Source: Agapetus fuscipes (lineage: Eukaryota > Arthropoda > Insecta > Trichoptera > Glossosomatidae). Taken from it: a stretch of 64,000 nucleotides of DNA. This document shows, one piece after another, positions 5,204-61,841 of the stretch. The position numbers were made by a program, and so were the translations under genes. Position 1 is the stretch's first letter. Every line of letters starts with the position of its first letter. The notes below the pieces were generated by a model. It worked only from the letters and a program-made list of their open reading frames with translations, ran no database searches and was not told where the DNA came from. The DNA is taken from assembly GCA_951799405.1 (NCBI GenBank), contig OX637357.1:248001-312000 (forward strand). The letters run 5' to 3'.

Positions 5204-5565
5204 TTTTTTTTTTTTTAACAAACAACACAAATACATAAAAATCCTTTATTATATTGCCCTTCGTCGTCGTCATTCGTCGTCGAGTTTCGATTTTCAAAAT
5301 CAATGCCATCACAGCAGATGAAACACATTCATGCTCTATAGCAAATTAATTTTTGTATATATGCTGCAATGCGGCGAGCTTACGCGTGTGTGTTTTGAAA
5401 TGTATGAAAACTTTTAGGAATTAATCTGTTTGTTCATACTAAAAATGTATGGAACAATATTGACATCTAGCGGCAAAACGTAAAAGTTTTTTTTACATTT
5501 TCTTTTATTTCATGCAAATTAAAAATAAAAAAAAAGCCAAATAAAAATGGATTTCAATCTGTAAT
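5204..5565. other. Unassigned AT-rich sequence
   Basis: No gene or known repeat is recognised, apart from homopolymer runs. Confidence 0.5.
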
Positions 5566-8500
5566 CTAAGTTGCAAACATATATAACATTTGAGATTCAT
5601 ATTACATGCATTCTTACGAGCAGACATGTATAAGTTCTAATCTAATCTAATCTAAGCTGCAAAGATATATATCATTTAAGATTTATATTAAATGCATTTT
5701 CACAAGCAGATATGTATAAGTTCCCGCTTACATATGCTGCATGTGTACTTACAACATAACAGCCCATTCCAAATGAACATAAGCCCTGCAACTCTTGCCG
5801 ACTTTTCCTCAAACAGAGATAAAATTTTCATTGTAAACCATTCTTACAGTATGGGTGGTCAGCCACATACTAACCTATAAGTCAAGGAAATTATTTTATT
5901 AAGTTCTATAATCTAAGTTGCAACGATACATACCATTTGAGATTCATATTAAATGCATTCCCACAAGCAGACAGGTATAAGTTCGCGCTTACAAATGCCC
6001 CATGTGGACTTATAAAATAAAAAACTAATCTCAAATGAACATAAGCCCTGCAACTCTTGCCGACTTTTCCTCAAACAGAGATAAAATTTTCATTGTAAAC
6101 CATTCTTACAGTATGGGTGGTCAGCCACATACTAACCTATAAGTCAAGGAAATTATTTTATTAAGTTCTATAATCTAAGTTGCAAAGATACATACCATTT
6201 GAGATTCATATTAAATGCATTCCCACAAGCAGACAGGTACAAGTTCACGCTTACAAATGCCCAATGTGGACTTGCAAAATAAAAAAAAACTAATCTCAAA
6301 TGAACATAAGCCCTGCAACTCTTGCCGACTTTTCCTCAAACAGAGATAAAATTTGCATTGTGAACCATTGCTTACAGTATGGGTGGTCAGCCACATACTA
6401 ACCTTTTAGTCAAGGAAATTATTTTGTTTAGTTCATTAATCTAAGTTGCAAAGATACATACCATTTGAGATTCATATTAAATGCATTCCCACAAGCAGAC
6501 AGGTATAAGTTCGCGCATACAAATGCCCCATGTGGACTTATAAAATAAAAAACTAATCTCAAATGAACATAAGCCCTGCAACTCTTGCCGACTTTTCCTC
6601 AAACAGAGATAAAATTTTCATTGTAAACCATTCTTACAGTATGGGTGGTCAGCCACATACTAACCTATAAGTCAAGGAAATTATTTTATTAAGTTCTATA
6701 ATCTAAGTTGCAAAGATACATACCATTTGAGATTCATATTAAATGCATTCCCACAAGCAGACAGGTATAAGTTCGCGCTTACAAATGCCCCATGTGGACT
6801 TATAAAATAAAAAACTAATCTCAAATGAACATAAGCCCTGCAACTCTTGCCGACTTTTCCTCAAACAGAGATAAAATTTTCATTGTAAACCATTCTTACA
6901 GTATGGGTGGTCAGCCACATACTAACCTATAAGTCAAGGAAATTATTTTATTAAGTTCTATAATCTAAGTTGCAAAGATACATACCATTTGAGATTCATA
7001 TTAAATGCATTCCCACAAGCAGACAGGTATAAGTTCGCGCTTACAAATGCCCCATGTGGACTTATAAAATAAAAAACTAATCTCAAATGAACATAAGCCC
7101 TGCAACTCTTGCCGACTTTTCCTCAAACAGAGATAAAATTTTCATTGTAAACCATTCTTACAGTATGGGTGGTCAGCCACATACTAACCTATAAGTCAAG
7201 GAAATTATTTTATTAAGTTCTATAATCTAAGTTGCAAAGATACATACCATTTGAGATTCATATTAAATGCATTCCCACAAGCAGACAGGTACAAGTTCAC
7301 GCTTACAAATGCCCAATGTGGACTTGCAAAATAAAAAAAAACTAATCTCAAATGAACATAAGCCCTGCAACTCTTGCCGACTTTTCCTCAAACAGAGATA
7401 AAATTTGCATTGTGAACCATTACTTACAGTATGGGTGGTCAGCCACATACTAACCTTTTAGTCAAGGAAATTATTTTGTTTAGTTCATTAATCTAAGTTG
7501 CAAAGATACATACCATTTGAGATTCATATTAAATGCATTCCCACAAGCAGACAGGTATAAGTTCGCGCATACAAATGCCCCATGTGGACTTATAAAATAA
7601 AAAACTAATCTCAAATGAACATAAGCCCTGCAACTCTTGCCGACTTTTCCTCAAACAGAGATAAAATTTTCATTGTAAACCATTCTTACAGTATGGGTGG
7701 TCAGCCACATACTAACCTATAAGTCAAGGAAATTATTTTATTAAGTTCTATAATCTAAGTTGCAAAGATACATACCATTTGAGATTCATATTAAATGCAT
7801 TCCCACAAGCAGACAGGTATAAGTTCGCGCTTACAAATGCCCCATGTGGACTTATAAAATAAAAAACTAATCTCAAATGAACATAAGCCCTGCAACTCTT
7901 GCCGACTTTTCCTCAAACAGAGATAAAATTTTCATTGTAAACCATTCTTACAGTATGGGTGGTCAGCCACATACTAACCTATAAGTCAAGGAAATTATTT
8001 TATTAAGTTCTATAATCTAAGTTGCAAAGATACATACCATTTGAGATTCATATTAAATGCATTCCCACAAGCAGACAGGTACAAGTTCACGCTTACAAAT
8101 GCCCCATGTGGACTTATAAAATAAAAAACTAATCTCAAATGAACATAAGCCCTGCAACTCTTGCCGACTTTTCCTCAAACAGAGATAAAATTTTCATTGT
8201 AAACCATTCTTACAGTATGGGTGGTCAGCCACATACTAACCTTTTAGTCAAGGAAATTATTTTGTTTAGTTCATTAATCTAAGTTGCAAAGATACATACC
8301 ATTTGAGATTCATATTAAATGCATTCCCACAAGCAGACAGGTATAAGTTCGCGCTTACAAATGCCCCATGTGGACTTATAAAATAAAAAACTAATCTCAA
8401 ATGAACATAAGCCCTGCAACTCTTGCCGACTTTTCCTCAAACAGAGATAAAATTTTCATTGTAAACCATTCTTACAGTATGGGTGGTCAGCCACATACTA

Positions 8501-9268
8501 ACCTTTTAGTCAAGGAAATTATTTTGTTTAGTTCATTAATCTAAGTTGCAAAGATACATACCATTTGAGATTCATATTAAATGCATTCCCACAAGCAGAC
8601 AGGTATAAGTTCGCGCTTACAAATGCCCCATGTGGACTTATAAAATAAAAAACTAATCTCAAATGAACATAAGCCCTGCAACTCTTGCCGACTTTTCCTC
8701 AAACAGAGATAAAATTTTCATTGTAAACCATTCTTACAGTATGGGTGGTCAGCCACATACTAACCTATAAGTCAAGGAAATTATTTTATTAAGTTCTATA
8801 ATCTAAGTTGCAAAGATACATACCATTTGAGATTCATATTAAATGCATTCCCACAAGCAGACAGGTATAAGTTCGCGCTTACAAATGCCCCATGTGGACT
8901 TATAAAATAAAAAACTAATCTCAAATGAACATAAGCCCTGCAACTCTTGCCGACTTTTCCTCAAACAGAGATAAAATTTTCATTGTAAACCATTCTTACA
9001 GTATGGGTGGTCAGCCACATACTAACCTATAAGTCAAGGAAATTATTTTATTAAGTTCTATAATCTAAGTTGCAAAGATACATACCAATCGAGATTCATA
9101 TTAAATGCATTCCCACAAGCAGACATTTATAAGTTCGCGCTTACACATAATGCATGTTGACTTACAACATAAAAACCCAATCTCAAATTAATATAAGCCC
9201 TGCAACTCTTGCCAATCTTCCCTGAAACACAGCTGAAATCTTCAAAGTGAACCATTTTTTAAACTATG
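5566..9268 (-). repeat. Tandem array of Rep-C, about 14 units of 262-266 bp
   Basis: Each unit is a whole Rep-C body (minus orientation) plus a short A/T linker. Unit starts, read from AATCTAAG, are 5648, 5910, 6172, 6438, 6700, 6962, 7224, 7490, 7752, 8014, 8276, 8538, 8800 and 9062, so the period is 262 with two 266-bp units. Two linker types occur: ACCTATAAGTCAAGG with TTATTAAGTTC, and ACCTTTTAGTCAAGG with TTGTTTAGTTC. A higher-order period of 1052 bp is visible: the unusual 266-bp units at 6172 and 7224, with AAAAAAAAC and CCCAATGTGGACTTGC, are almost identical. The outer units (5566-5910 and 9062-9268) are more diverged. This points to expansion from one dispersed copy by unequal exchange. 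Confidence 0.95.
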
Positions 9269-9374
9269 GGTGGTCGATTTTCTTTTACAAAGGCTGCATG
9301 TTTTTATTTTACATGTTTTCCGAATTTTAACGCGAGGAAACTATGCGCAATATACACATTCACCAAATGTTAAG

Positions 9375-12060: not shown

Positions 12061-12500
12061 CTGTGGGAGACAAGAGGAGGCCATGAGAAGTGCCGGCAGT
12101 ACTGACAGTGTCATCATGGTTATGGAAAATAAAAGGAACACTGGTCTAATTTAAATTGGTTCTGTAATCTACAATCTAAGATTCATATTGTTCCAAACAT
12201 ATGAGTTCGTGTGGACGTGAGCCTAGGCACGCTGATTGGTGTATGTGATGTCTCTGGCATAGTATCGAACAGTCTGGTATAGTGTGGAACAATGTTCTAG
12301 TATAATTCATTATGGAAGTATAGAACATGCAAGAATCGTCTTCCACCCATATATACGAGCAAAGATTATGTGGGACAGATAGAGTCACAGTTATTATTAT
12401 TATACTATATCAGGGGCGTGCATCCCAGACAGACACATACGCCTAATATGTAGGCAATATATGGCTATCGAAAACGTTTTGTAATTTAATAATTTACCGT
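12061..12500. other. Unassigned sequence
   Basis: No gene or repeat is recognised. It would be intronic if the adjacent exon is real. Confidence 0.4.
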
Positions 12501-12832
12501 CCGGTTGATAGCTCAGTTGGTAGAGTGCTTGCATTCTACCCCGTGAGCTCGGGTTCGAATCCCACCGAGGAGGGTGTCAGAAATGATTTCCTATTTCGGT
12601 GTGTATTTCAAACCCCAAAATATAAATACCGGTGAGGTTTACTCAGCCTTCACAAGAAATGAGTACCAGCCCCCTCGGGAGCTGGGAAATTCCCACTTCA
12701 ACTGAAGTGGTTGGCGTAAGGCCGGCCCCCTTACCTGTAAAAATAAATAGGTTCAACTCGCCACATGCGACCCCTTCGGGGATAACGCGGCAAGAAGTTA
12801 CACTATATGTGTAGCTTAGTTGCGTTGAGTTG
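12501..12832 (+). mobile_element. SINE-A, full length
   Basis: Good reference copy. Head: CCGGTTGATAGCTCAGTTGG with B-box GGGTTCGAATCCC. Body: TTTCCTATTTCGGTGTGTAT, GAAATGAGTACCAGCCCCCT and CTTCAACTGAAGTGG. Then the CCCCTTCGGGG hairpin, TACACTATATGTGTAGCTTA and a TTGCGTTGAGTTGCG tail. Confidence 0.95.
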
Positions 12833-19245: not shown

Positions 19246-19415
19246 ATTATGAAAGTTTATTAAAGTGACGGAGCCATCATAACTAGTTAAATCCCCTGAT
19301 TATCGGGAATCCATTTTTATAACTACCTATGGATAACGTCACATAGTCGTGAGATATTTTTATTGTGCCGAGCCTATTGTCACAGTCATTCGAATACAAC
19401 ATTATCCATATATTT

Positions 19416-19682
19416 AAAATAAAATTATTTTTTTCTAAAACGTAGTTTTATTTTCACAATAACATTTTCTACCTCAAGTACTTTCGACCTTCAATACTCA
19501 GGTCATTATCAAGAGTCATTACTCGGGGCATTATTAGACTCTTGATAATGACCTGCGTATTGAAGGTCGAAAGTACCTACTTGAGGTAGAAAATATTATT
19601 GTGAAAATAAAACTAAGTTTTAGAAAAAAAAAAAAAAAAAAAATGAATTTTCACTGTGTGAATACACAAACCCTACAAAATC
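19416..19682. mobile_element. Inverted hammerhead-bearing element (Penelope-like), 14-bp TSD
   Basis: The two arms (about 19427-19517 and 19537-19632) are inverted repeats with a 19-nt spacer. The flanks repeat TTATCCATATATTT at 19402-19415 and 19683-19696. Outward in each arm lie a hammerhead-like block (stem AGGTC, GAAA, GTAC) and a GTGAAAATAAAACTAAGTTT block shared with the elements at 37790 and 60731. One side only has an extra tail (about 19640-19682) with TTCACTGTGTGAA. The hammerhead core is degenerate (TTGATAA), so cleavage is unlikely. Inverted or partial terminal repeats with a one-sided extension are known for Penelope-like retroelements; I saw no RT or GIY-YIG ORF. Confidence 0.7.
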
Positions 19683-19696
19683 TTATCCATATATTT

Positions 19697-21499: not shown

Positions 21500-21722
21500 A
21501 AGGTTGCACAACCCATCCTCATACCCGTTCCGTTGGCACACTTACATCTGGTATCACAGAACGGAGCTTATCACAGAACGCTCATGCAATGCTATATTTT
21601 TTTCAGCGGCGGAAGGCCTTCCCGATGGTCGTGACCCGACCCAGCAGTGATTCTAGATCTACTTGTTCGTCCACTAGAGAAAAAAGGCAAGAGGATGTAT
21701 GTATTACGATGAACGTATGTGT
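21500..21722 (+). repeat. Unnamed dispersed repeat
   Basis: ATCACAGAACGCTCATGCAA, GCGGAAGGCCTTCCCGATGG and ACCCGACCCAGCAGTGATTC recur at about 35390-35508 (plus) and 47555-47700 (minus). Here the repeat lies immediately upstream of the 5S-headed SINE-B. No terminal structure or ORF is seen. Confidence 0.65.
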
Positions 21723-22130
21723 CAATGACGATACCATGTTGAAAGCACTGGTTCTCATCAGATCACCAAAGTTAAGCAACATTGGGCGCAGATAGTACTT
21801 GGATGGGTAACCGCTTAGGTACACCGCGCATCGTTGGCATTTCTTGGACCGGTCCGTAGTCCAGTGGCAACACTTCGGACTCATAAATAAAGGTTGTGAA
21901 TTTGGATCCCGGCGGAGCACACAAAATATACCATTTACATTTCCAAATATGCTCTTCGCTGGGTTGAAAAAAATCATAAAAACCTTTACCGAAGACCGGT
22001 GACTAAAGGTCCATCCAGCCTTACAGCAACTGGATCTTGCTTGAGTATTGGCGCTTTGTAGCGACGACCAAGCTTGTAAACACCTCTGCGGCACTACAAC
22101 AAGTGTCATAGACCCCTAGATTCTCTAGAT
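21723..22130 (+). mobile_element. Composite SINE: 5S rRNA head plus SINE-B
   Basis: Positions 21723-21840 are a 5S rRNA-like sequence: GATCACCAAAGTTAAGCAAC (A-box region), GTACTTGGATGGGTAACCGC (box C region), and complementary ends around CAATGACG and ATCGTTGGCAT. After a short TTCTTG linker the tRNA-like head follows at 21847-21921 (GTAGTCCAGTGG, GGACTCATAAATAAAGG, GGCGGAGCAC), then the SINE-B body and the alternative 3' end (CACCTCTGCGG, GTCATAGACCCCTAGATTCT). Two more copies on the minus strand (27866-28281 and 35595-36008) have the same junction. 5S-derived SINEs are known; a 5S head followed by a second, tRNA-like promoter is a composite design. Not a functional 5S gene: it is diverged and embedded in a repeat. 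Confidence 0.9.
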
Positions 22131-25059: not shown

Positions 25060-25200
25060 CAAATGTAAGCACAATTATATTTTTTGTTGATTGTAATCCT
25101 ACCTGATGATAACCTACATATGTATAGGGTCGAAAACGTTAGTAATCTATAATTGAAATAAATTGATATAATATTATTGAGTGAAAAGAAACAGTGTTTA
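25060..25200 (+). mobile_element. Solo hammerhead-bearing Penelope-like end
   Basis: Positions 25100-25144 carry the hammerhead-like core. Downstream GAGTGAAAAGAAACAGTGTT corresponds to the conserved block that follows the hammerhead in the elements at 19416, 37790 and 60731. No inverted partner is seen. Confidence 0.55.
25100..25144 (+). ncRNA. Hammerhead-ribozyme-like motif
   Basis: CTGATGA (25103-25109) is an exact CUGANGA core. It is followed by a foldable stem II (25110-25131, CCTA with TAGG around CATATG), GAAA (25132-25135) and a minimal stem III ACGTT, with UUA as the NUH cleavage triplet. Stem I is short (TAC with GTA). Core complete, stem I weak. Confidence 0.5.
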
Positions 25201-27865: not shown

Positions 27866-28281
27866 ATTAGGATGATTTATTTGGTGAGCGCTGTTTTTGT
27901 GTGTATCACACCTCAAGAGCCCTCTGTGAGCTTGGTCGTCGCTGTAGAAAGCGCCAATTCTCAAGCAAGACCCAGTTATTGTAAGGTTGGATGGACCTTT
28001 CAGTGACCGGTCTTTGGTAAAGGTTTATGAATTTTTCAACTCAGCGAAGAGCACATTCGAAATATAAATGGTATATTTTTGTGCTCCGCCGGGATGCGAA
28101 TCCACAACCTTCCATTTACGAGTCCGAAGTGTTGCCACTACGGACTACGGACCGGTCCAAGATGCCAACGACACGCGGTGTACCTGAGCGGTCACCCATC
28201 CAAGTACTGTCCGCGCCCAATGTTGCTTAACTTCGGTGATCTATGGGAACCGGTGCTTTCAACATGGCTAACGTCGTTGAC
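27866..28281 (-). mobile_element. Composite SINE: 5S rRNA head plus SINE-B
   Basis: The minus strand starts with the 5S-like head (28281-28162: GTCAACGACG, then TCACCGAAGTTAAGCAACAT, then CTTGGATGGGTGACCGC), passes GGACCGGTCCGTAGTCCG into the tRNA-like head, and ends with the standard SINE-B hairpin and tail (CACCAAATAAATCATCCTAA at 27868). The junction agrees with 21723 and 35595, but the 3' end is the standard rather than the alternative type. Confidence 0.9.
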
Positions 28282-28324: not shown

Positions 28325-28812
28325 TCGAAGTTTATTTCGCTATTCTACCAAACGCTCCTATCACGCATCTTCCTTTGCTGGCACGCTTCTCTAATTCTTT
28401 CGTCATCTTACCATTCGCCTCAAACTTACTTCCTAAATAGTCAAACTCATTCACTACTTCAACTTTTATTCCATTCAAATTAATTGTAAGTTCCTCACAT
28501 ACTTCATTCCTGTCAAAAACTAATACTTTTGTCTTATTCGCATTCACTTTCAAGCTATTCTTACAAAACGCATCATTCAGTTTGGTTAGCATCGCTTGGA
28601 GTTCCTCCGCCGAGTCAGCTAAAACTATAGCATCATCAGCATAAGGAAGTACTCCAACTCTTGTTTCACCCACTTTCCCTCCGCTCTCTGATATTCCAGC
28701 TTCTTTTATGCAACTGTCCATGATTATATTAAACAACCATGGACTCATCACGCAGCCTTGCCTCACTCCCTTATATACATCAAACCAGTCACTATATCTC
28801 CCATCCACTCTT
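28325..28812 (-). pseudogene. LINE-Z reverse transcriptase fragment, downstream of the RTE insertion
   Basis: A minus-strand open frame encodes the RT palm: VYKGVRQGCVMSPWLFNIIM (motif B), YADDAIVLADS (catalytic YADD), LKVNANKTKVLVFDR and FDYLGSKFEANGKM, ending GAFGRIAK. It joins with 29999-30090 across the RTE insertion: the 12-bp duplicated target encodes RVDG in both halves. No endonuclease domain is left. It overlaps in family with 15958-16575, which starts at the same IGRIA motif and carries the missing C-terminus. Confidence 0.85.
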
Positions 28813-29986
28813 CTTCTTGTGCCACTTCTAACGAAGATCGGCGATCATCATAGCTATTTTGAGTTTTCATGCTGCGGCTCGAAATAGGGACTTGGTGCTT
28901 CTGCCGAACCACTGTCGCAGGTTCTTCAGCCACGATGTCCTTCGGCGTCCCTGAGATCTTCTCCCCTCAATCTTACCCTGAATGATAAGATGAAGGAGAC
29001 GGTACTTCTCATTTCTCATAATGTGACCGAAGTACATTAGCTTTCTCTGCTTAATGGTAGGCAGGAGCTCCTTTGTAGTGCGCATTCGTTGAAGGACTTC
29101 TTCATTGGTGACTCGATCACGCCAAGAGATCCGAAGCATTTTTCGGTATAGACACATCTCGAATGCTTCAATACGTCTCTCCAGTGCCTGCGTGAGAGTC
29201 CATCCCTCCATACCATACAGAGCGATTGGGAAAACGTAGCACCTCACTATGCGCTTCCGGAGTTCAAGGCTTAAATTTCGGCACAACAGTAATTTGCTCA
29301 TTTTAGCGAAGACATTTCGGGCTTGCTCTAGTCTGCTTCTGACTTCTTGACACATGCCCCACTTTTCGTTGACCACACATCCCAGGTACCTGTAACTAGT
29401 GCATCTTTCAATGCTTTCGCCATCTAGTTCTACATGTACGGAGGCGTTTGTGTTTCTGCTGATAACCATGACCTTGGTCTTCTTAAAGTTTATGTTAATG
29501 CCAGCTTCTTTGCTAGCGACATTTATTCTAGTCAACAATGTTTGCAGATCCGCCTGAGTGTCAGCGAGTAGGACTGTGTCATCGGCATACCGCAGGTTGT
29601 TTACCAGCTGCCCGTTGACAACAATGCCTTCCCTAGCCTCATGAAGTGCTTGCGCCATGATCCTTTCTGAATATAGGTTAAAAAGTGTTGGTGACAGTAC
29701 GCATCCCTGTCTAACTCCTCTTCTGATGGGTATTTGTCTGGTCTCTGAACTCTCTACAAGCACTGAAGCAGTTTGCTGCCAATATATATTTGCAATAATG
29801 CGAGTGTTTTTATCGTCTATCCCAATGTCTTTCAGTATACTAATCAGCTTGTCGTGTCTCAATCTGTCAAAGGCCTTTTCGTAGTCAATAAAGCAAACAT
29901 AAACATCTTTATTCATATCGAGACAACGTTGTACTAAAACCTGTAATCCAAACAGAGCATCTCGTGTGCCAAAGCCGTTCCTAAAA
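28813..29986 (-). mobile_element. RTE-clade retrotransposon, 5' truncated, 12-bp TSD
   Basis: Open on the minus strand through nearly all of its length, in frame with the flanking LINE-Z (the combined frame spans 28867-30186, 439 codons; residues 68-439 are RTE). Visible motifs: VYVCFIDYEKAFDRLRHDKL (motif A), IRRGVRQGCVLSPTLFNLYS (motif B), NLRYADDTVLLADT (catalytic YADD), FKKTKVMVISR, YRYLGCVV, FPIALYGMEGWTL, YRKMLRISWRDRVTNEEVL and MYFGHIMRN. These match RTE-like endonuclease-reverse transcriptases. The endonuclease and RT fingers are missing (5' truncation). The 3' end after the stop is about 50 bp. Target-site duplication CCATCCACTCTT lies at 28801-28812 and 29987-29998. The intact frame suggests a recent insertion. 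Confidence 0.9.
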
Positions 29987-29998
29987 CCATCCACTCTT

Positions 29999-30090
29999 AC
30001 ACATGCCGAACTATTTTCATAGATGGCACGTATCACATTCAGAAGATTATCATTCACACCGTACTTCCTGAGAACATTCCACAACATACA
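29999..30090 (-). pseudogene. LINE-Z RT fragment, upstream of the RTE insertion
   Basis: Encodes LWNVLRKYGVNDNLLNVIRA and IYENSSACV, the segment before motif B in LINE-Z. It continues at 28812 after the RTE insertion. The copy is 5' truncated near 30090. Confidence 0.8.
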
Positions 30091-30371
30091 TCTGTAATTT
30101 TTATATTTTTGTATGTTTTTTTTTAAATTAAAATGCTTATACTGTAGTATACTAATATTTTGTGCATATATTTCACATTCCTCCATATACTGTTATTTTA
30201 CATGCATGGCCGGCAGCGCAGACAGCGGAGGTTTTAACCAGATAGATTTGGAAAACGAATTTCCAGTAAAAAAATGTTGCTTTACGCGCGATCGTTCTGA
30301 GGGAAAATGGAGCCCGGAGCCCCAAGCAAAGCAAATATTTTTTTAATGTCGCAAAGAATAGTTTTGTGTAT

Positions 30372-31709: not shown

Positions 31710-31753
31710 TTCTCTACGTTTCGTCAGCGACGTAGCCGACGTCTTCAGGAGAA
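31710..31753 (-). ncRNA. Hammerhead-ribozyme-like motif
   Basis: Minus strand: stem I TTCTC (31749-31753) pairs with GAGAA (31710-31714). The core CTGAAGA (31742-31748) fits CUGANGA. Stem II GTCGGC with GCTGAC and GAAA (31719-31722) are present. Stem III is minimal, with GUA as the NUH triplet. One unpaired C lies between the core and stem II. Confidence 0.55.
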
Positions 31754-35594: not shown

Positions 35595-36008
35595 CCTACA
35601 TGTTCTAAAGACTCTAGGGGTCTATGACACTTGTTGTAGTGCCGCAGAGGTGTACGAGCTTGGTCGTCGCTACAAAGCGCCAATACTCAAGCAAGACCTT
35701 AGTTGCTGTAAGGCTGGATGGACCTTTGGTGACCGGTCATTGGTAAAGGTTTTTATGATTTTTCAACCCAGCGAAGAGCACATTCGAAATATAAATGGTA
35801 TATTTTTGTGCTCCGCCGGGATCCGAATCCACAACCTTCCATTTACGAGTCCGAAGTGTTGCCACTACGGACTACGGACCGGTCCAAGATGCCAACGACA
35901 CGCGGTGTACCTGAGCGGTTACCCATCCAAGCACTGACCACGCCCAATGTTGCTTAACTTCGGTGATCTATGGGAACCGGTGCTTTCAACATGGCTAACG
36001 TCGTTGAC
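35595..36008 (-). mobile_element. Composite SINE: 5S rRNA head plus SINE-B
   Basis: The minus strand reads 5S-like (36008-35888: CACCGAAGTTAAGCAACATT, CTTGGATGGGTAACCGCTC), the joint TGGACCGGTCCGTAGTCCG, the tRNA-like head, the SINE-B body and the alternative 3' end (CACCTCTGCGGCACTACAAC, GTCATAGACCCCTAGAGTCT). Confidence 0.9.
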
Positions 36009-37220: not shown

Positions 37221-37789
37221 TTTGTGACTGAAATTTTAGACTGTAGATGGCATTTTGGTCAACCATTGAAAGAAAGAACCATCGATGAGTAAAAATTGAA
37301 AGACATTTTATTTCTTGAGAAGCGTGTTTTAAAAAGGTTGAGGATGAATGCAGAATGAAGAATGAGACACGTGTGAGTGTGTGCGTGTATGAGTCAGATA
37401 GTTGGCGGGAAACTTAACATTATCAGATTCATAATATGTAAGGAAAGGGCGTCGCATGGAACCAAAGGCGGCGATGTAGGGTTTGTTTACTTACATGAGA
37501 TAAGTTTGGAGAAAATGGTTTACAGAATTTCCATATATGTATTTTATATTCGGTAAAAAAATCCTAATTTGCCGTATCTGATTCTACATACACGACTCAT
37601 ATAATGTATGGATAGTGAAGCCTAGCCATGTTAATTCTGGTGACAGGATAGAACAGCACAGCGACAAAACAACACATGACATAACATCGCACGACTTAAC
37701 ATCACGTCGATAGTAAACATCACAATGACAAAACAACACAAGGACAAAGCATCGCATGAGAAAACATCACAAACGATACAAACATTTAT
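37221..37789. other. Unassigned sequence
   Basis: 37640-37775 is rich in ACAACAC/ATCGCA(TGA)-type imperfect repeats (AAACAACAC, AACATCGCA). No gene. Confidence 0.5.
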
Positions 37790-37919
37790 AAATTTTGAAA
37801 AGATTTTTGTGAAACACTGTGGAAATTCATTTTAAAAAATTGATTATTTTTCAATAAAAATTAAAAAATAAAAGAAATTAAAAACTTTGTTTTATTCCAC
37901 TTTTATTGTTTTTGAGTAT

Positions 37920-37959
37920 GTTACAAACGTTTTCGGAATACCTTCCATCATCGGGTAAC
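37920..37959 (-). ncRNA. Hammerhead-ribozyme-like motif (left arm)
   Basis: Mirror copy of the motif at 38296-38335. Confidence 0.5.
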
Positions 37960-38295
37960 AACAATTACTAAAATCAAACTTAAAAATTAAGACATGGGTG
38001 TGGGATCTATTGGTGGTAAGGGAGGGGGTAGCAAGGTAGGTATGTGGGGACGGACGGACAAGGTAGGTATGTGGGGGAGGACATATTAGAAATATTAGAG
38101 ATAAATAAACATAGAAATAAAAGTAATATGCTAAATATTCAACTTCCCGCCATTACGTCTCCTCTCCTAACAATATTAGCTCCGCCCCAAAACTCACCAT
38201 CTCCCTCCCACATACCTACCTTGCTACCCCCTCCCTTACCACCAATAGATCCCACACCCATGTCTTAATTTTTAAGTTTGATTTTAGTAATTGTT

Positions 38296-38335
38296 GTTAC
38301 CCGATGATGGAAGGTATTCCGAAAACGTTTGTAAC
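38296..38335 (+). ncRNA. Hammerhead-ribozyme-like motif (right arm)
   Basis: Stem I GTTAC (38296-38300) pairs with GTAAC (38331-38335). The core is CCGATGA, one change from CUGAUGA (U4 to C). Stem II GGAA with TTCC and a GGTA loop, GAAA (38321-38324), stem III ACGTT, and UUU as the NUH triplet. The core change at a conserved residue makes activity doubtful. Confidence 0.5.
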
Positions 38336-38420
38336 ATACTCAAAAACAATAAAAGTGGAATAAAACAAAGTTTTTAATTTCTTTTATTTTTTAATTTTTA
38401 TTGAAAAATAATCAATTTTT

Positions 38421-38691
38421 CAAACATTTATTTTGCCTTTAATGAGAAGGCTGGCGTAAGGCCCTTACCTGTAAAAATAAGTGAACTATTCTGGGGATAA
38501 GATTGTTAAGATAAGAAGTTGCTATTTATTGATAATTATTATCTAATATTGTAAATAATCGGTGGCGCAATTTTTTTGTAAAAACTTTATCAAATAATAT
38601 TTGCACGATTTCCATTTACACAGCCTTCTGTTTACGAGTCCGTAGCTTTAACCATTAGGTAAGAAAACAGTATTCATAGTAAAATAATATT
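38421..38691. other. Unassigned sequence
   Basis: A scrap of SINE-A body (GGCGTAAGGCCCTTACCTGT) at 38453 is the only match. Confidence 0.4.
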
Positions 38692-41147: not shown

Positions 41148-41383
41148 TCAACTTAAGAAAACAGCGATTAAATTTATTTTAGGAGCTTTCTCACATTTGC
41201 TTTACAGTTTATACTTTTGTACTTGTCGCTTAATTAACGACTTGGGTACTAATGCCCTCCAAAGCACTGCAATACGTATTTATAGATGACTAAAGGCTAT
41301 TCTAGCATACACCAGACCATGCCAGAATTGCCTCGAGCAGGATATGCTCTAGCAAATACGAGTAGATACAACGCAACTAAAAC

Positions 41384-41706
41384 GCAACTAAGCTACACAT
41401 ATAGTGTAACTTCTTGCCGCGTTATCCCCGAAGGGGTCGCATGTGGCGAGTTGAACCTATTTATTTTTACAGGTAAGGGGGTCGGCCTTACCCCAACCAC
41501 TTCAGTTGAGGTGGGGGTTTCCCAGCTTCCGAGGGGGCTGGTACTCATTTCTTGTGAAGGCTGAGTAAACCTTGCCGGTATTTTTATTATGGGGTTTGAA
41601 ATAAACACCGAAATAGGAAATCATTTCTGACACCCTCCTCGGTGGGATTCGAACCCGAGCTTACGGGGTAGAATGCGAGCACTCTACCAACTGAGCTATC
41701 GACCGA
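41384..41706 (-). mobile_element. SINE-A, full length
   Basis: Head TCGGTCGATAGCTCAGTTGG, B-box GGGTTCGAATCCC, full body, and the CCCCTTCGGGG hairpin. Ends AGCTTAGTTGCGTTTTAGTT. Confidence 0.95.
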
Positions 41707-42307
41707 ACAACCATTCAAATATTTACGTCTAGACACACATACGAATAGACTCGTATGCAAGTAAGTAAAAACATACAGACACAGAATCATTAGTAAGCAT
41801 ACACAGACATAAACGCATAGTAACATTACTTACGTTTTGACTTAGACTGCGATCGGTTTCAAAGTCCGCATTGTGAGGTACACTCATAGGTATTGTTTTA
41901 TATGGCAGTGACGAAGTTAATGCGAAAAACTTTTTGACTTCATTATCTTCGGCGAACAGAGGCGGCCGATGGAGATGATTAAAATAAATTTAATAGCAGG
42001 CTGGGGGGCCCAGGGGGGGCACAACCTCTCAAATCACGGAAAAAACAAATCCACAATTAATTCCATTTATTATTGTAATTTAATGAAAAGTTAATGGCCA
42101 CTTAGGAGGCGGATCTCAGAAGGAAATTTATTTATTTATTTTACGGCATAAGCCTTTTACAAAATAATCAAATATTTATTTAATCAATAATTTTAAGAAA
42201 TAATCAAATCGAGATAGAAATTTTGCACGTTTTTTGGTAACACATAAAATTTCATAGACAAAAAAGTTGTGCTACCACTCGGCTGGAATACTAGATTGTC
42301 TGTCCCA
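41707..42307. other. Unassigned sequence
   Basis: Contains a G-rich GGGGGGCCCAGGGGGGGC run near 42005. No gene. Confidence 0.5.
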
Positions 42308-46140: not shown

Positions 46141-46275
46141 ACGTATATTTTCATTTATTTATTTAAAGAAATTGCACGGTTTTAGTTCACTTTTTAAAAT
46201 GTTTTTTTTAGCTCGAATATTTTCGCCTCAAAAAGGCATCCTCAGGAGCAGTCATTCTCAAAGCATCCTCAGTAT
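46141..46275 (-). mobile_element. Solo hammerhead-bearing Penelope-like end
   Basis: On the minus strand a perfect hammerhead motif (46211-46249) is followed by AAAAAAAACATTTTAAAAAG and GTGAACTAAAACCGTGCAAT. The latter corresponds to the GTGGAATAAAACAAAG block of related elements. CTGAGGATGC occurs twice (46239-46245 region and about 46261-46270). Confidence 0.6.
46211..46249 (-). ncRNA. Hammerhead ribozyme motif, best match in the window
   Basis: Minus strand, 39 nt. Stem I GCTC (46246-46249) pairs with GAGC (46211-46214). The core CTGAGGA (46239-46245) exactly fits CUGANGA. Stem II is GCCT with AGGC, with one unpaired U before it. GAAA is at 46221-46224. Stem III is two A-U pairs with a UA loop (A-A..U-U), and UUC is the NUH triplet, so cleavage would fall between 46215 and 46214. 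It is type I (closed by stem I) with a minimal stem III, the form reported in Penelope-like elements and metazoan retrozymes. Confidence 0.7.
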
Positions 46276-46335: not shown

Positions 46336-46633
46336 GACCGGTCCGTAGTCCAGTGGCTACACTTCGGACTCGTAAATGGAAGGTTGTGGATTCGAATCCC
46401 GGCGGAGCACAAAAATATACCATTTATATTTCCAAATGTGCTCTTCGCTGGGTTGAAAAATTCATAATTCTTACCAAAGACCGGTCACTGAAAGGTCCAT
46501 CCAACCTTACAGCACCTGGGTCTTGCTTGAGTATTGGCGCTTTGTAGCGACGACCAAGCTCATACACCTCTGCGGCACCACAAGTGTCATAGACCCCTAG
46601 AGTCTCTAGAATCTAGGGAGTCTCCCACACAGG
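46336..46633 (+). mobile_element. SINE-B with alternative 3' end
   Basis: GACCGGTCCGTAGTCCAGTG, B-box GGATTCGAATCCC, GACCGGTCACTGAAAGGTCC, CACCTCTGCGGCACCACAAG and GTCATAGACCCCTAGAGTCT. No 5S head: the upstream sequence is unrelated after TTCTTG. Confidence 0.9.
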
Positions 46634-49269: not shown

Positions 49270-49385
49270 TTGTGAAGATTAATTTTAAATTGATAATTTA
49301 AAAAATAAATATCACCATGTTTTTCTTTACGAGTTAATTCATTGCCTCGAGCGCTTTCGATGTTCTCACATCATTACGAGTATCA
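49270..49385 (-). mobile_element. Hammerhead-like Penelope end, decayed
   Basis: Minus strand 49380-49344: CTCGTAATGATG, a GATGT/ACATC stem, GAAA, GCGCTC and GAGGC. Stem I and GAAA are kept, but the core reads GTAATGA instead of CTGATGA. Downstream CTCGTAAAGAAAAACATGGT matches the conserved following block. Confidence 0.45.
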
Positions 49386-59600: not shown

Positions 59601-60007
59601 ACTATACAGCTTTACAGCAACTGGGTCTTGCTTAAGCATTGACATTTTCTATGTTTCTAATTGTTTTCGATAGTTCATTACCACTGGTATACAACATTGC
59701 GAAAAATCTTCACGAGAGGGGTGATATTTGATTGTCCACACTTTTTTTAAAAAAATGCAAAATTTTACCTGACCAGGCAAAAGTATCAAAATTATCAATT
59801 AATAATTTAATATGTATATTTTAATGAATTACCAATAAATAATTGCCCAATGATATCTGTTGAACTAGGGTCAAAGTAACTGTCGATAGAATACGGCGGG
59901 GTTCAAACTTGCTTTATCCGCACAACCATACCAACGCTCTTTCCATACAATGTGTGTAATCAACGCAATGTTTTATATGTAAGTGCATCTGGCGTAGAAG
60001 ACACACG
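59601..60007. other. Mostly unassigned sequence
   Basis: 59608-59645 is SINE-B body (CTTTACAGCAACTGGGTCTT). Nothing else. Confidence 0.5.
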
Positions 60008-60115
60008 TCTCCTGAAGACGTCGGATACTAGTATACGACCACGATGAAACGTTGAGAAATCCGTTATTTTCTACAACGCGGTTCGTAAACTTCGATTAAC
60101 CGGCTATAAAAGGGA
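60008..60115 (+). mobile_element. Solo hammerhead-bearing end, same subfamily as 30981
   Basis: 60008-60057: stem I TCTC with GAGA, core CTGAAGA (60012-60018), a long stem II (GTCG with CGAC and GATAC with GTAT), GAAA (60046-60049), CGTT; NUH triplet GUU. Extra CACGAT before GAAA departs from the normal fold. Downstream GCGGTTCGTAAAC matches the foldback arms. Confidence 0.5.
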
Positions 60116-60708: not shown

Positions 60709-60856
60709 TTGCGTACCAGCGATCTAATTAATAAGAGTTCAAATTTGTTTAGTGAAACACTGTGGTAAGCCATTATAAAGATTTATTTTTAAAAAAACAA
60801 TAAAAATTATTTTCTAAAAATTAAACAAAAAACTTTGTGTAATACCACTTTGAGTA

Positions 60857-60910
60857 CATATTTTAATTCAAGAGTACTTTCGGTGTTATACCATCGTCAG
60901 TTGAAAATAT
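60857..60910 (-). ncRNA. Hammerhead-ribozyme-like motif (left arm)
   Basis: Exact mirror of 61269-61322. Confidence 0.55.
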
Positions 60911-61268
60911 ACTAAAACTTAAAATTAAAGACATTGCAGACAGTGTGGGGGTGGTAGGAAGGGGTAGGGGAGGAGTCTAATGAGCTAGGTTCTTTAATGA
61001 GTGGAAGTGGGAGGAGCTAGGAGGATGATTTATGGTTTGGTTCTGGGTTTACAAATTATATTTAAAAGAGGAGAAGTTATATTTGGATGCATCCAAATAT
61101 AACTTCTCCTCTTTTAAATATAATTTGTAAACCCAGAACCAAACCATAAATCATCCTCCTAGCTCCTCCCACTTCCACTCATTAAAGAACCTAGCTCATT
61201 AGACTCCTCCCCTACCCCTTCCTACCACCCCCACACTGTCTGCAATGTCTTTAATTTTAAGTTTTAGT

Positions 61269-61322
61269 ATATTTTCAACTGACGATGGTATAACACCGAA
61301 AGTACTCTTGAATTAAAATATG
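61269..61322 (+). ncRNA. Hammerhead-ribozyme-like motif (right arm)
   Basis: Stem I ATATTTTCAA (61269-61278) pairs with TTGAA..AAATAT (61308-61322, small bulge). Core CTGACGA (61279-61285) is exact. Stem II GGT with ACC (one unpaired U before it), GAAA (61298-61301), stem III G-C plus A-U with a UA loop, and NUH triplet CUC (cleavage after 61307). Stem II is short. Confidence 0.6.
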
Positions 61323-61402
61323 TACTCAAAGTGGTATTACACAAAGTTTTTTGTTTAATTTTTAGAAAATAATTTTTATTGTTTTTTTTAAAAATAAATC
61401 TT

Positions 61403-61841
61403 GATCTAATTAAATTAAGTAAAATAAAAATCTAAATACATTAGTGCCTTCTTTAATTTGGCCATTCATATAGTCTATGGACAAATGGTTCCTAACGTTT
61501 CCACAAGCCAGTGGGCATTAATCCAAGTAATTGAAAAGAAACTTTATTTTGTTAAAAAATATTTTTATGGTTTTAGACCATGGATGTTAGACCATTGTGT
61601 GATTGCAGCTTTTTTATCTGCCCACGTTTCGCTTTCACGAGCAGAAAGCATTCTCAAGGCGAGTTATCAAAGCGACGCCGACGTGATGGTTTTCGTTGTC
61701 TACACTCTGCGCGGTCGCTCACTCTTCACGACTCTTTATTTTTGTCGACGTTGTTGTTCAGTATTGTCTAACAATTGTATTCTCCAACACAGAAAAACGT
61801 TCATGAAAGATAAACACAAATAAACCTTAGGCTTCCATCGG
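61403..61841. other. Unassigned sequence
   Basis: A 121-codon plus-strand ORF (61458-61823) has no recognisable domain. Confidence 0.45.

Follow-up and report, generated by a model that had tools for sequence, protein, structure and literature searches.

Probable dimer-type hammerhead motifs in the pseudo-LTRs of Penelope-like elements of Agapetus fuscipes

A 64,000-nt stretch of the Agapetus fuscipes genome (contig OX637357.1, positions 248,001 to 312,000 of the forward strand), referred to here as the window, contains recurrent motifs that are quite probably minimal, dimer-type type I hammerheads carried in the pseudo-LTRs (pLTRs) of Penelope-like elements (PLEs). The reading that we favour joins the anatomy of the motifs and the patterns of insertion ends to a putative transcription start at an A before the core, a partner copy with which the ribozyme would dimerize, a predicted cutting step and an RNA template that would be uncut. 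A first-pass annotation of the window had proposed such a hammerhead family, and this interpretation is right. The class is not new, because minimal type I hammerheads of PLEs are already in print; the motifs described here represent further PLE hammerhead families.

The window was searched with a covariance model, a check of the kind that the annotation had proposed for the genome; the model was trained on eight copies, all from outside the window. Eight of the ten copies that had been listed, at six distinct loci, were recovered above background with E-values of 8.6e-10 to 0.018, those of the copies at 38296, 46211 and 31710 being not fully independent because three of the eight training rows (from loci L055, L012 and L034) represent families related to them. 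The strongest matches lie in the two arms of a PLE insertion, A. The left-arm motif (37920-37959, minus strand) has a CCGAUGA core, an inserted U and the stem III segment AACGUU, and the right-arm motif (38296-38335, plus strand) has the same sequence; both scored at E 8.6e-10. Cleavage is predicted between 37925 and 37924 in the left arm and between 38330 and 38331 in the right arm. In a second PLE insertion, B, the left-arm motif (60867-60905, minus strand) has a CUGACGA core, an inserted U and stem III AGUACU, and the right-arm motif (61274-61312, plus strand) has its predicted cleavage site between 61307 and 61308; the E-value was 9.4e-7 for each.

The remaining copies are solitary. The motif at 46210-46250 (minus strand; E 1.3e-6) combines CUGAGGA, an inserted U, stem III AAUAUU and the stem I pairing GCUC/GAGC. 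Those at 31710-31753 (minus strand; E 1.2e-6) and 60007-60058 (plus strand; weaker stem II; E 0.0025) share CUGAAGA, an inserted C and stem III ACGU, and constitute one sub-family. A weaker motif at 25098-25146 (plus strand; E 0.018), with CUGAUGA, an inserted U, stem III AACGUU and a 3-bp stem I, was missed by a strict descriptor scan of the window. The two copies that had been called decayed scored at noise: the covariance model found no significant hammerhead at 19471-19517 (minus strand), where the core is degenerate (E 1.5), and the degenerate hammerhead-like sequence with the palindrome AGCGCT at 49344-49382 (minus strand) gave E 7.9, both amid background matches. A block following the motif, GTGGAATAAAACAAAG, had been described as common to most copies; by eye, it is exact in the 38296 family alone, similar in the 61269 family and weak elsewhere.

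The window copies consist of a CUGANGA-type core, one inserted pyrimidine (mostly U), stem II, GAA, a self-complementary stem III segment of the form A...U, an H nucleotide and stem I. The CUGANGA...GAA(A) core and the H nucleotide before the cut are those of type I hammerheads, save in the 38296 and L055 families, which have CCGANGA (CCGAUGA in the 38296 family). A change of U4 to C is expected to weaken hammerhead cleavage. Stem II does not directly adjoin A9 of CUGANGA; one base intervenes. The annotation had remarked on this unpaired pyrimidine, and one inserted base was present in all seven strict matches in the window and in 61 of 61 strict matches across 59 sequences, a count in which overlapping loci are recounted, 38 matches belong to one family and a regular stem I is demanded by the descriptor.

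The strict descriptor matched the window seven times (five distinct loci), versus a mean of 0.33 and a maximum of two in 40 first-order Markov sequences. It was written after the copies had been seen, and genome-wide counts with reversed-pattern controls are therefore the better test. In the genome (618 Mb, 148 contigs), the pattern with an inserted pyrimidine, CTGANGAYGSN{3,12}SCGAAA, matched 8,014 times versus 30 times for its reverse, and the pattern CTGANGANGGN{3,12}CCGAAA matched 1,889 times versus 11. With the start of the stem fixed to G-S, which excludes all other stems, among them the GTC stems that accompany an inserted C in the 31710 and 60008 copies, an inserted C was found 61 times (21 reversed), a purine 139 times (27 reversed) and no insertion 93 times (41 reversed). 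By subtraction of C, the inserted base was U in 7,953 of the 8,014 pyrimidine-insertion matches. About 39 of the 93 insertion-free matches were one repeat, CTGATGAGGGCTTGATGCGAGCC, and close variants of it, for which a reading with an inserted G is also possible. Because the counts with an inserted pyrimidine far exceed those with a purine or without insertion, we conclude that the one-base insertion before stem II is the rule in the A. fuscipes genome. A published account implies that known alignments contain insertions of up to one or two bases at that position (PMC10085705). Search models that lack the extra base may miss such motifs: the 4,227 models of Rfam detected no hammerhead in the window at E≤5 and none in 15 related loci at E≤10, a result that also counts against the hammerhead reading.

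The inserted U also creates an AUG (A9-U-G10.1), which could be read as a start codon. For the 38296 family this reading was discarded, since 124 nt separate the beginning of the core from that of the ORF; in the copies read by eye, the frames opened by this AUG had no shared length. Among the places listed, the commonest hammerhead-like core with a purine at the inserted position was a repeat, CTGATGAGGGCTTGATGCGAGCCGAAA, at loci L033, L039 and L044. At L039, a tRNA-like match just under the Rfam cut-off lies about 230 nt upstream on the opposite strand.

Three insertions in the window identify the carrier. Insertion A (37790-38420) comprises two 5'-truncated copies arranged head to head, the left arm with a long tail that reaches into the start of the ORF and the right arm with a short end, between 11-bp target duplications, CAAACATTTAT, at 37779-37789 and 38421-38431. 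Upstream of the arm A hammerhead, positions 38059-38265 (plus strand) encode the C-terminal end of a PLE protein (residues 778-844; tblastn, 93% identity, 8.5e-31). Insertion B (60732-61402) is a near-perfect head-to-head palindrome centred at 61089/61090, with its long tail on the left (ORF start MAYHSV...), its short end on the right and target duplications GATCTAATTAA at 60721-60731 and 61403-61413. By eye, no AATAAA-type signal, a candidate for marking where a terminal redundancy ends, followed the ribozyme in the 61269 family. Insertion C (19416-19682) is a decayed head-to-head pair with the long tail on the right (ORF start MNFHCV...) and target duplications TTATCCATATATTT at 19402-19415 and 19683-19696. 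The ORF-start tails of A, B and C (MNFHSV, MAYHSV and MNFHCV, respectively) are each on one arm. The stretch at 19476-19590, at noise as a hammerhead, is nevertheless part of a PLE insertion.

The pair at 37831-38424 is a member of a young PLE family. When its 218-bp arm (38207-38424) was used as a query, 41 of the 45 genomic matches listed (from the best 40 of 952 candidates scored) were 99-100% identical. One member of the family (L051) carries an intact 844-aa ORF between hammerheads in direct orientation, 2,691 bp apart, with an inverted copy at its 5' end. The layout of the family is pLTR-ORF-pLTR, with an ORF of the reverse transcriptase/GIY-YIG type; between successive ORFs, the core starts 33 nt past the upstream stop codon and 124 nt ahead of the downstream start codon. 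At a threshold of 1e-3, the 844-aa protein matched a single Pfam family, RVT_1 (2.6e-14). It also matched PLE-type proteins: PF01541 is annotated in some of its homologues, the consensus of a 22-sequence alignment of homologues contains SGVY...YIGQTGR, and the named PLE homologues among 120 listed are mostly from arthropods. In two divergent families (L040 and L049; L045), homology to the PLE C-terminus ends about 56 nt before the hammerhead. The elements thus have reverse transcriptase and GIY-YIG in one ORF, direct and inverted pLTRs, the tail and the target duplication (about 11 bp) that are characteristic of PLEs, and the proposed PLE-type family is supported by the 38296 copy in particular. 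The 25100, 31710, 46211 and 60008 copies have no inverted partner and no adjoining match to the 844-aa protein; for these, the motif itself suggests a PLE origin. A scan of viral contigs for relatives returned four remote reverse transcriptase matches, none with a hammerhead by model R1, and a scan of genome contigs of other organisms returned none.

The pairing of the stems was analyzed in 12 rows drawn from 17 distinct strict matches and selected for stems with three or more pairs; those left out of the 17 were the 60008 copy and four near-copies of the L023 row, and the 25100 and GGCC-type families were absent from the 17 because they fail the stem rules of the descriptor. In stems I and II, 83 of 83 cells were paired versus a shuffled mean of 61%, a percentage that holds by construction, given how the rows had been selected; the information lies in the diversity of pair types. 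Covariation in these stems was 0.955, versus 0.214 in shuffled rows and 0.206 in the top slid control. All four pairs of stem I had changes on both sides. Stem II was closed by G10.1-C11.1 in 12 of 12 chosen rows, partly by construction, and the 25100 copy departs from this. These families retain the core, H17 and the A15.1-U16.1 pair, and their stems covary.

An unchosen sample comprised the 31 distinct pattern matches at the centres of loci L021-L050 (the first in genome order of the 1,889), unselected for stem I or III. Stem II had at least three pairs, two of them set by the pattern, in 31 of 31. Stem I adjoined the core with at least three contiguous pairs in 12 of the 31 and was offset or missing in 19; in GGCC-type families, it has four to five pairs only past an offset of 2-3 nt, or fewer. 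The annotation had stated that the stems keep pairing while their sequences differ; stems I and II covary in the chosen rows, but among unchosen matches stem I is regular in just 12 of 31.

Stem III had been described as 1-2 bp. A better description is a self-complementary segment that separates GAA from H, with the sequence AATATT, AGTACT, AACGTT or ACGT in window copies and frequently ACCGGT elsewhere. Such 4-6-nt palindromes were present in 24 of the 31 distinct unchosen matches (26 of 33 with duplicates), and the background of palindromes after GAA was 11%, a figure inflated by the ribozymes themselves. In the 12 chosen rows, 33 of 34 stem III cells were paired, and two of the three pairs had changed on both sides. 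A segment that is too short to serve a monomer and is self-complementary can hardly close within one molecule but can pair between two, and the palindromic stem III therefore suggests that these hammerheads would act as dimers. Co-folding did not favour the proposed dimer and did not discriminate.

The ends of retrocopies were sampled in two families. The query for the young family was confined to the 136 nt that follow the predicted cut, which gave copies beginning there an equal chance of detection. It yielded 57 matches (from the best 40 of 1,105 candidates scored), from which 30 loci with 51 arms were read. Relative to the predicted cut, 15 arms started at −43 to −45 and one at −47. None started within 4 nt of the cut; one started at +5 and one at −9, and the remainder from −22 to beyond −1,400, three of the arms being one tandem array. 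The −45 point is the A of TTTTAGTAAT, which is initiator-like and lies 15 nt before the core. At the other end, all 20 inverted pairs combined a long 3' end (+136 to +140) with a short one (+43 to +102), the 136-nt query favouring at least one long end per pair. Short retrocopies either reached into the beginning of the ORF or stopped about 45 nt before that point. A composite on contig C7, with a long tail at both outer ends, is an exception, and at two loci of the first search (L002 and L004) the partner arm ends still earlier. Target duplications of 11-14 bp, with boundaries that can be shifted by a few bases, flanked 19 of 19 tested pairs; 2 of 342 mismatched flank pairs reached 11.

Since the CCGAUGA core of the young family may not cut, we also sampled the GGCC family, which has CUGAGGA (47 matches from the best 40 of 559 candidates scored; 20 hand-chosen stretches, 24 arms). 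Fourteen of its 16 single arms ran at least 80 nt upstream, the limit of the sequence examined, and two started at −5 and −9. The paired arms started at −37, −36, −37, −35, −41, −27, −11 and −26, four of the eight thus lying at −35 to −37. Position −37 is the A of TTCAGTTT, about 7 nt before the core, and TATATA is located about 30 nt further upstream. Overall, none of the 75 arms of the two families started within 4 nt of the predicted cut and four did so within 9 nt (+5, −5, −9 and −9). Because the 5' ends cluster upstream and avoid the cut, the retrocopies seem to have been made from uncut RNA. Neither family is a fully regular ribozyme, given the CCGAUGA core of the one and the offset stem I of the other, and the lack of retrocopies that begin at the cut could therefore be due to weak cutting alone. 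An intact core and a regular stem I are combined in other families, such as the GGAAAC family (L023 and L040). A TYAGT whose A lies 6-20 nt ahead of the core was present in 10 of 18 representatives, not all independent, versus 3.3% of window positions.

These data are consistent with a scheme in which transcription would start at the initiator-like A before the core, which would make the ribozyme the first folded element of the RNA. Read-through into the next pLTR, or a tandem transcript, would give an RNA with two ribozyme copies, and their palindromic stem III segments could pair, which would yield the active dimer. A cut after the H nucleotide would release monomers from tandem read-through RNA and would also take off the capped leader. 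Reverse transcription would start inside the ORF and copy RNA that is uncut at the 5' ribozyme, and extension of both target ends would produce the head-to-head inserts.

The main alternative, which we consider rather unlikely though deserving of weight, is that the motifs are inactive fossils or structural RNAs whose fold is kept for binding by the PLE protein, or as a mark of the 5' end, and not for cleavage. The absence of retrocopy starts at the predicted cut in all 75 arms fits such a view, as do the U4-to-C change in the young family examined, the irregular stem I of 19 of 31 unchosen matches and the base inserted into the core nearly throughout. Passages on an Anolis PLE also describe insertion that is independent of cleavage (PMC11167929). 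However, the retention of the core, H17 and the A15.1-U16.1 pair in the chosen families while the stems covary is hardly required by binding alone, and the same passages describe cleavage by the Anolis relative when the PLE protein is present (PMC11167929).

A more specific proposal departs from cleavage as a maturation step. It holds that PLE ribozymes would have a hammerhead geometry of their own, in which a bulged U between A9 and stem II is obligatory, would be placed at the first nucleotides of the transcript by a TYAGT/TATA promoter, and would act as a 5'-end mark or a protein-controlled switch, in which cut RNA is spent, uncut RNA is the template and only the latter is copied. We regard this as tentative and improbable as a whole.

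It is very unlikely that the copies are non-autonomous retrozymes, that is, small tandem repeats with hammerheads and circular RNAs, rather than PLEs. Metazoan retrozyme repeats of about 150-300 bp are described in passages of PMC7761336, and one array on contig C15, of three 295-bp hammerhead units, has the form of such short non-coding tandem repeats. By contrast, insertions A, B and C do not; they carry PLE ORF-start tails, inverted pLTRs and target duplications, and A belongs to a family with an intact PLE ORF. Moreover, retrozyme ribozymes are described, in the portions of the literature concerned, as canonical with loop contacts and those of PLEs as minimal. The C15 array (L071-L073; G000:C15:4591387-4592112) is arranged head to tail and belongs to the PLE family of copy A; each unit is a pLTR, the first two with about 120 nt of the ORF start, such that the array is retrozyme-like and derived from a PLE. 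Finally, an origin of the motif by chance or from low complexity in a genome rich in AT and repeats, with which the background scores of the two decayed copies would agree, has a negligible probability against the covariance-model E-values and genome-wide counts of 8,014 versus 30 and 1,889 versus 11.

The dimer-type PLE hammerheads favoured here resemble several known systems. The small hammerhead variants that cleave as dimers (Lunse, Weinberg & Breaker 2017) are reportedly alike in PLE association and small size, and the palindromic stem III points to dimers here. Three published accounts describe minimal type I hammerheads without helix III or loop contacts in the pLTRs of PLEs, present in thousands in many metazoan genomes and with an unknown role (PMC6155905, PMC7761336, PMC7229834). 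By these descriptions, the minimal PLE hammerheads of Cervera & De la Pena 2014 share with the present ones the pLTR location, tandem copies, little or no helix III and thousands of copies. Two of these sources, in the parts concerned, report dimeric cleavage for newt and viroid hammerheads with a weak helix III and suggest it for those of PLEs (PMC6155905, PMC7761336).

The Anolis PLE PAc (Frangieh et al. 2024, PMC11167929), as portrayed in part of that account, is alike in its pLTR-ORF-pLTR tandem, its hammerhead at the pLTR/ORF junction, its start of reverse transcription inside the ORF at two sites that give an optional tail, and its use of unprocessed RNA as the main template. Its ORF starts at ribozyme stem II, whereas that of the young family starts 124 nt past the start of the core. 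Penelope families of the bdelloid rotifer Adineta vaga likewise have head-to-head inverted pLTRs, one with an optional 31-bp tail, and target duplications of 8-10 bp versus about 11 bp here; the portion of that account concerned does not mention a hammerhead, and in A. fuscipes each of the 20 pairs has the tail on a single arm (PMC3846280). Set against published PLE hammerheads as they are described, three features may be new: a U inserted in nearly all motifs, the putative position of the ribozyme at the very start of the RNA and the apparent absence of cut templates. Retrocopy 5' ends provide a cheap test in a genome with thousands of motifs: in two families, the template start lay upstream of the ribozyme, with no peak at the cut.

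Several other features were observed in the window. Reverse-transcriptase-like frames at 28332-30192 (minus strand), which by eye look LINE-type, lie downstream of the 31710 copy on the same strand. Beside the 46211 copy, positions 46340-46412 (plus strand) form a tRNA-like stretch (GGTCCGTAGTCCAGTGGCTA...GATTCGAATCC) that is perhaps the head of a SINE; ARAGORN reports no tRNA. Three 5S-rRNA-like sequences over the Rfam gathering score, at 21721-21839 (plus strand), 28163-28281 (minus strand) and 35890-36008 (minus strand), are perhaps the heads of 5S-derived SINEs. A tandem array at 5550-9300 comprises about 13 units of 262-266 bp, related copies of which are dispersed in the window. Finally, positions 12499-12826 and 41381-41708 constitute a 328-nt inverted repeat, 95% complementary, whose arms are 28.5 kb apart.
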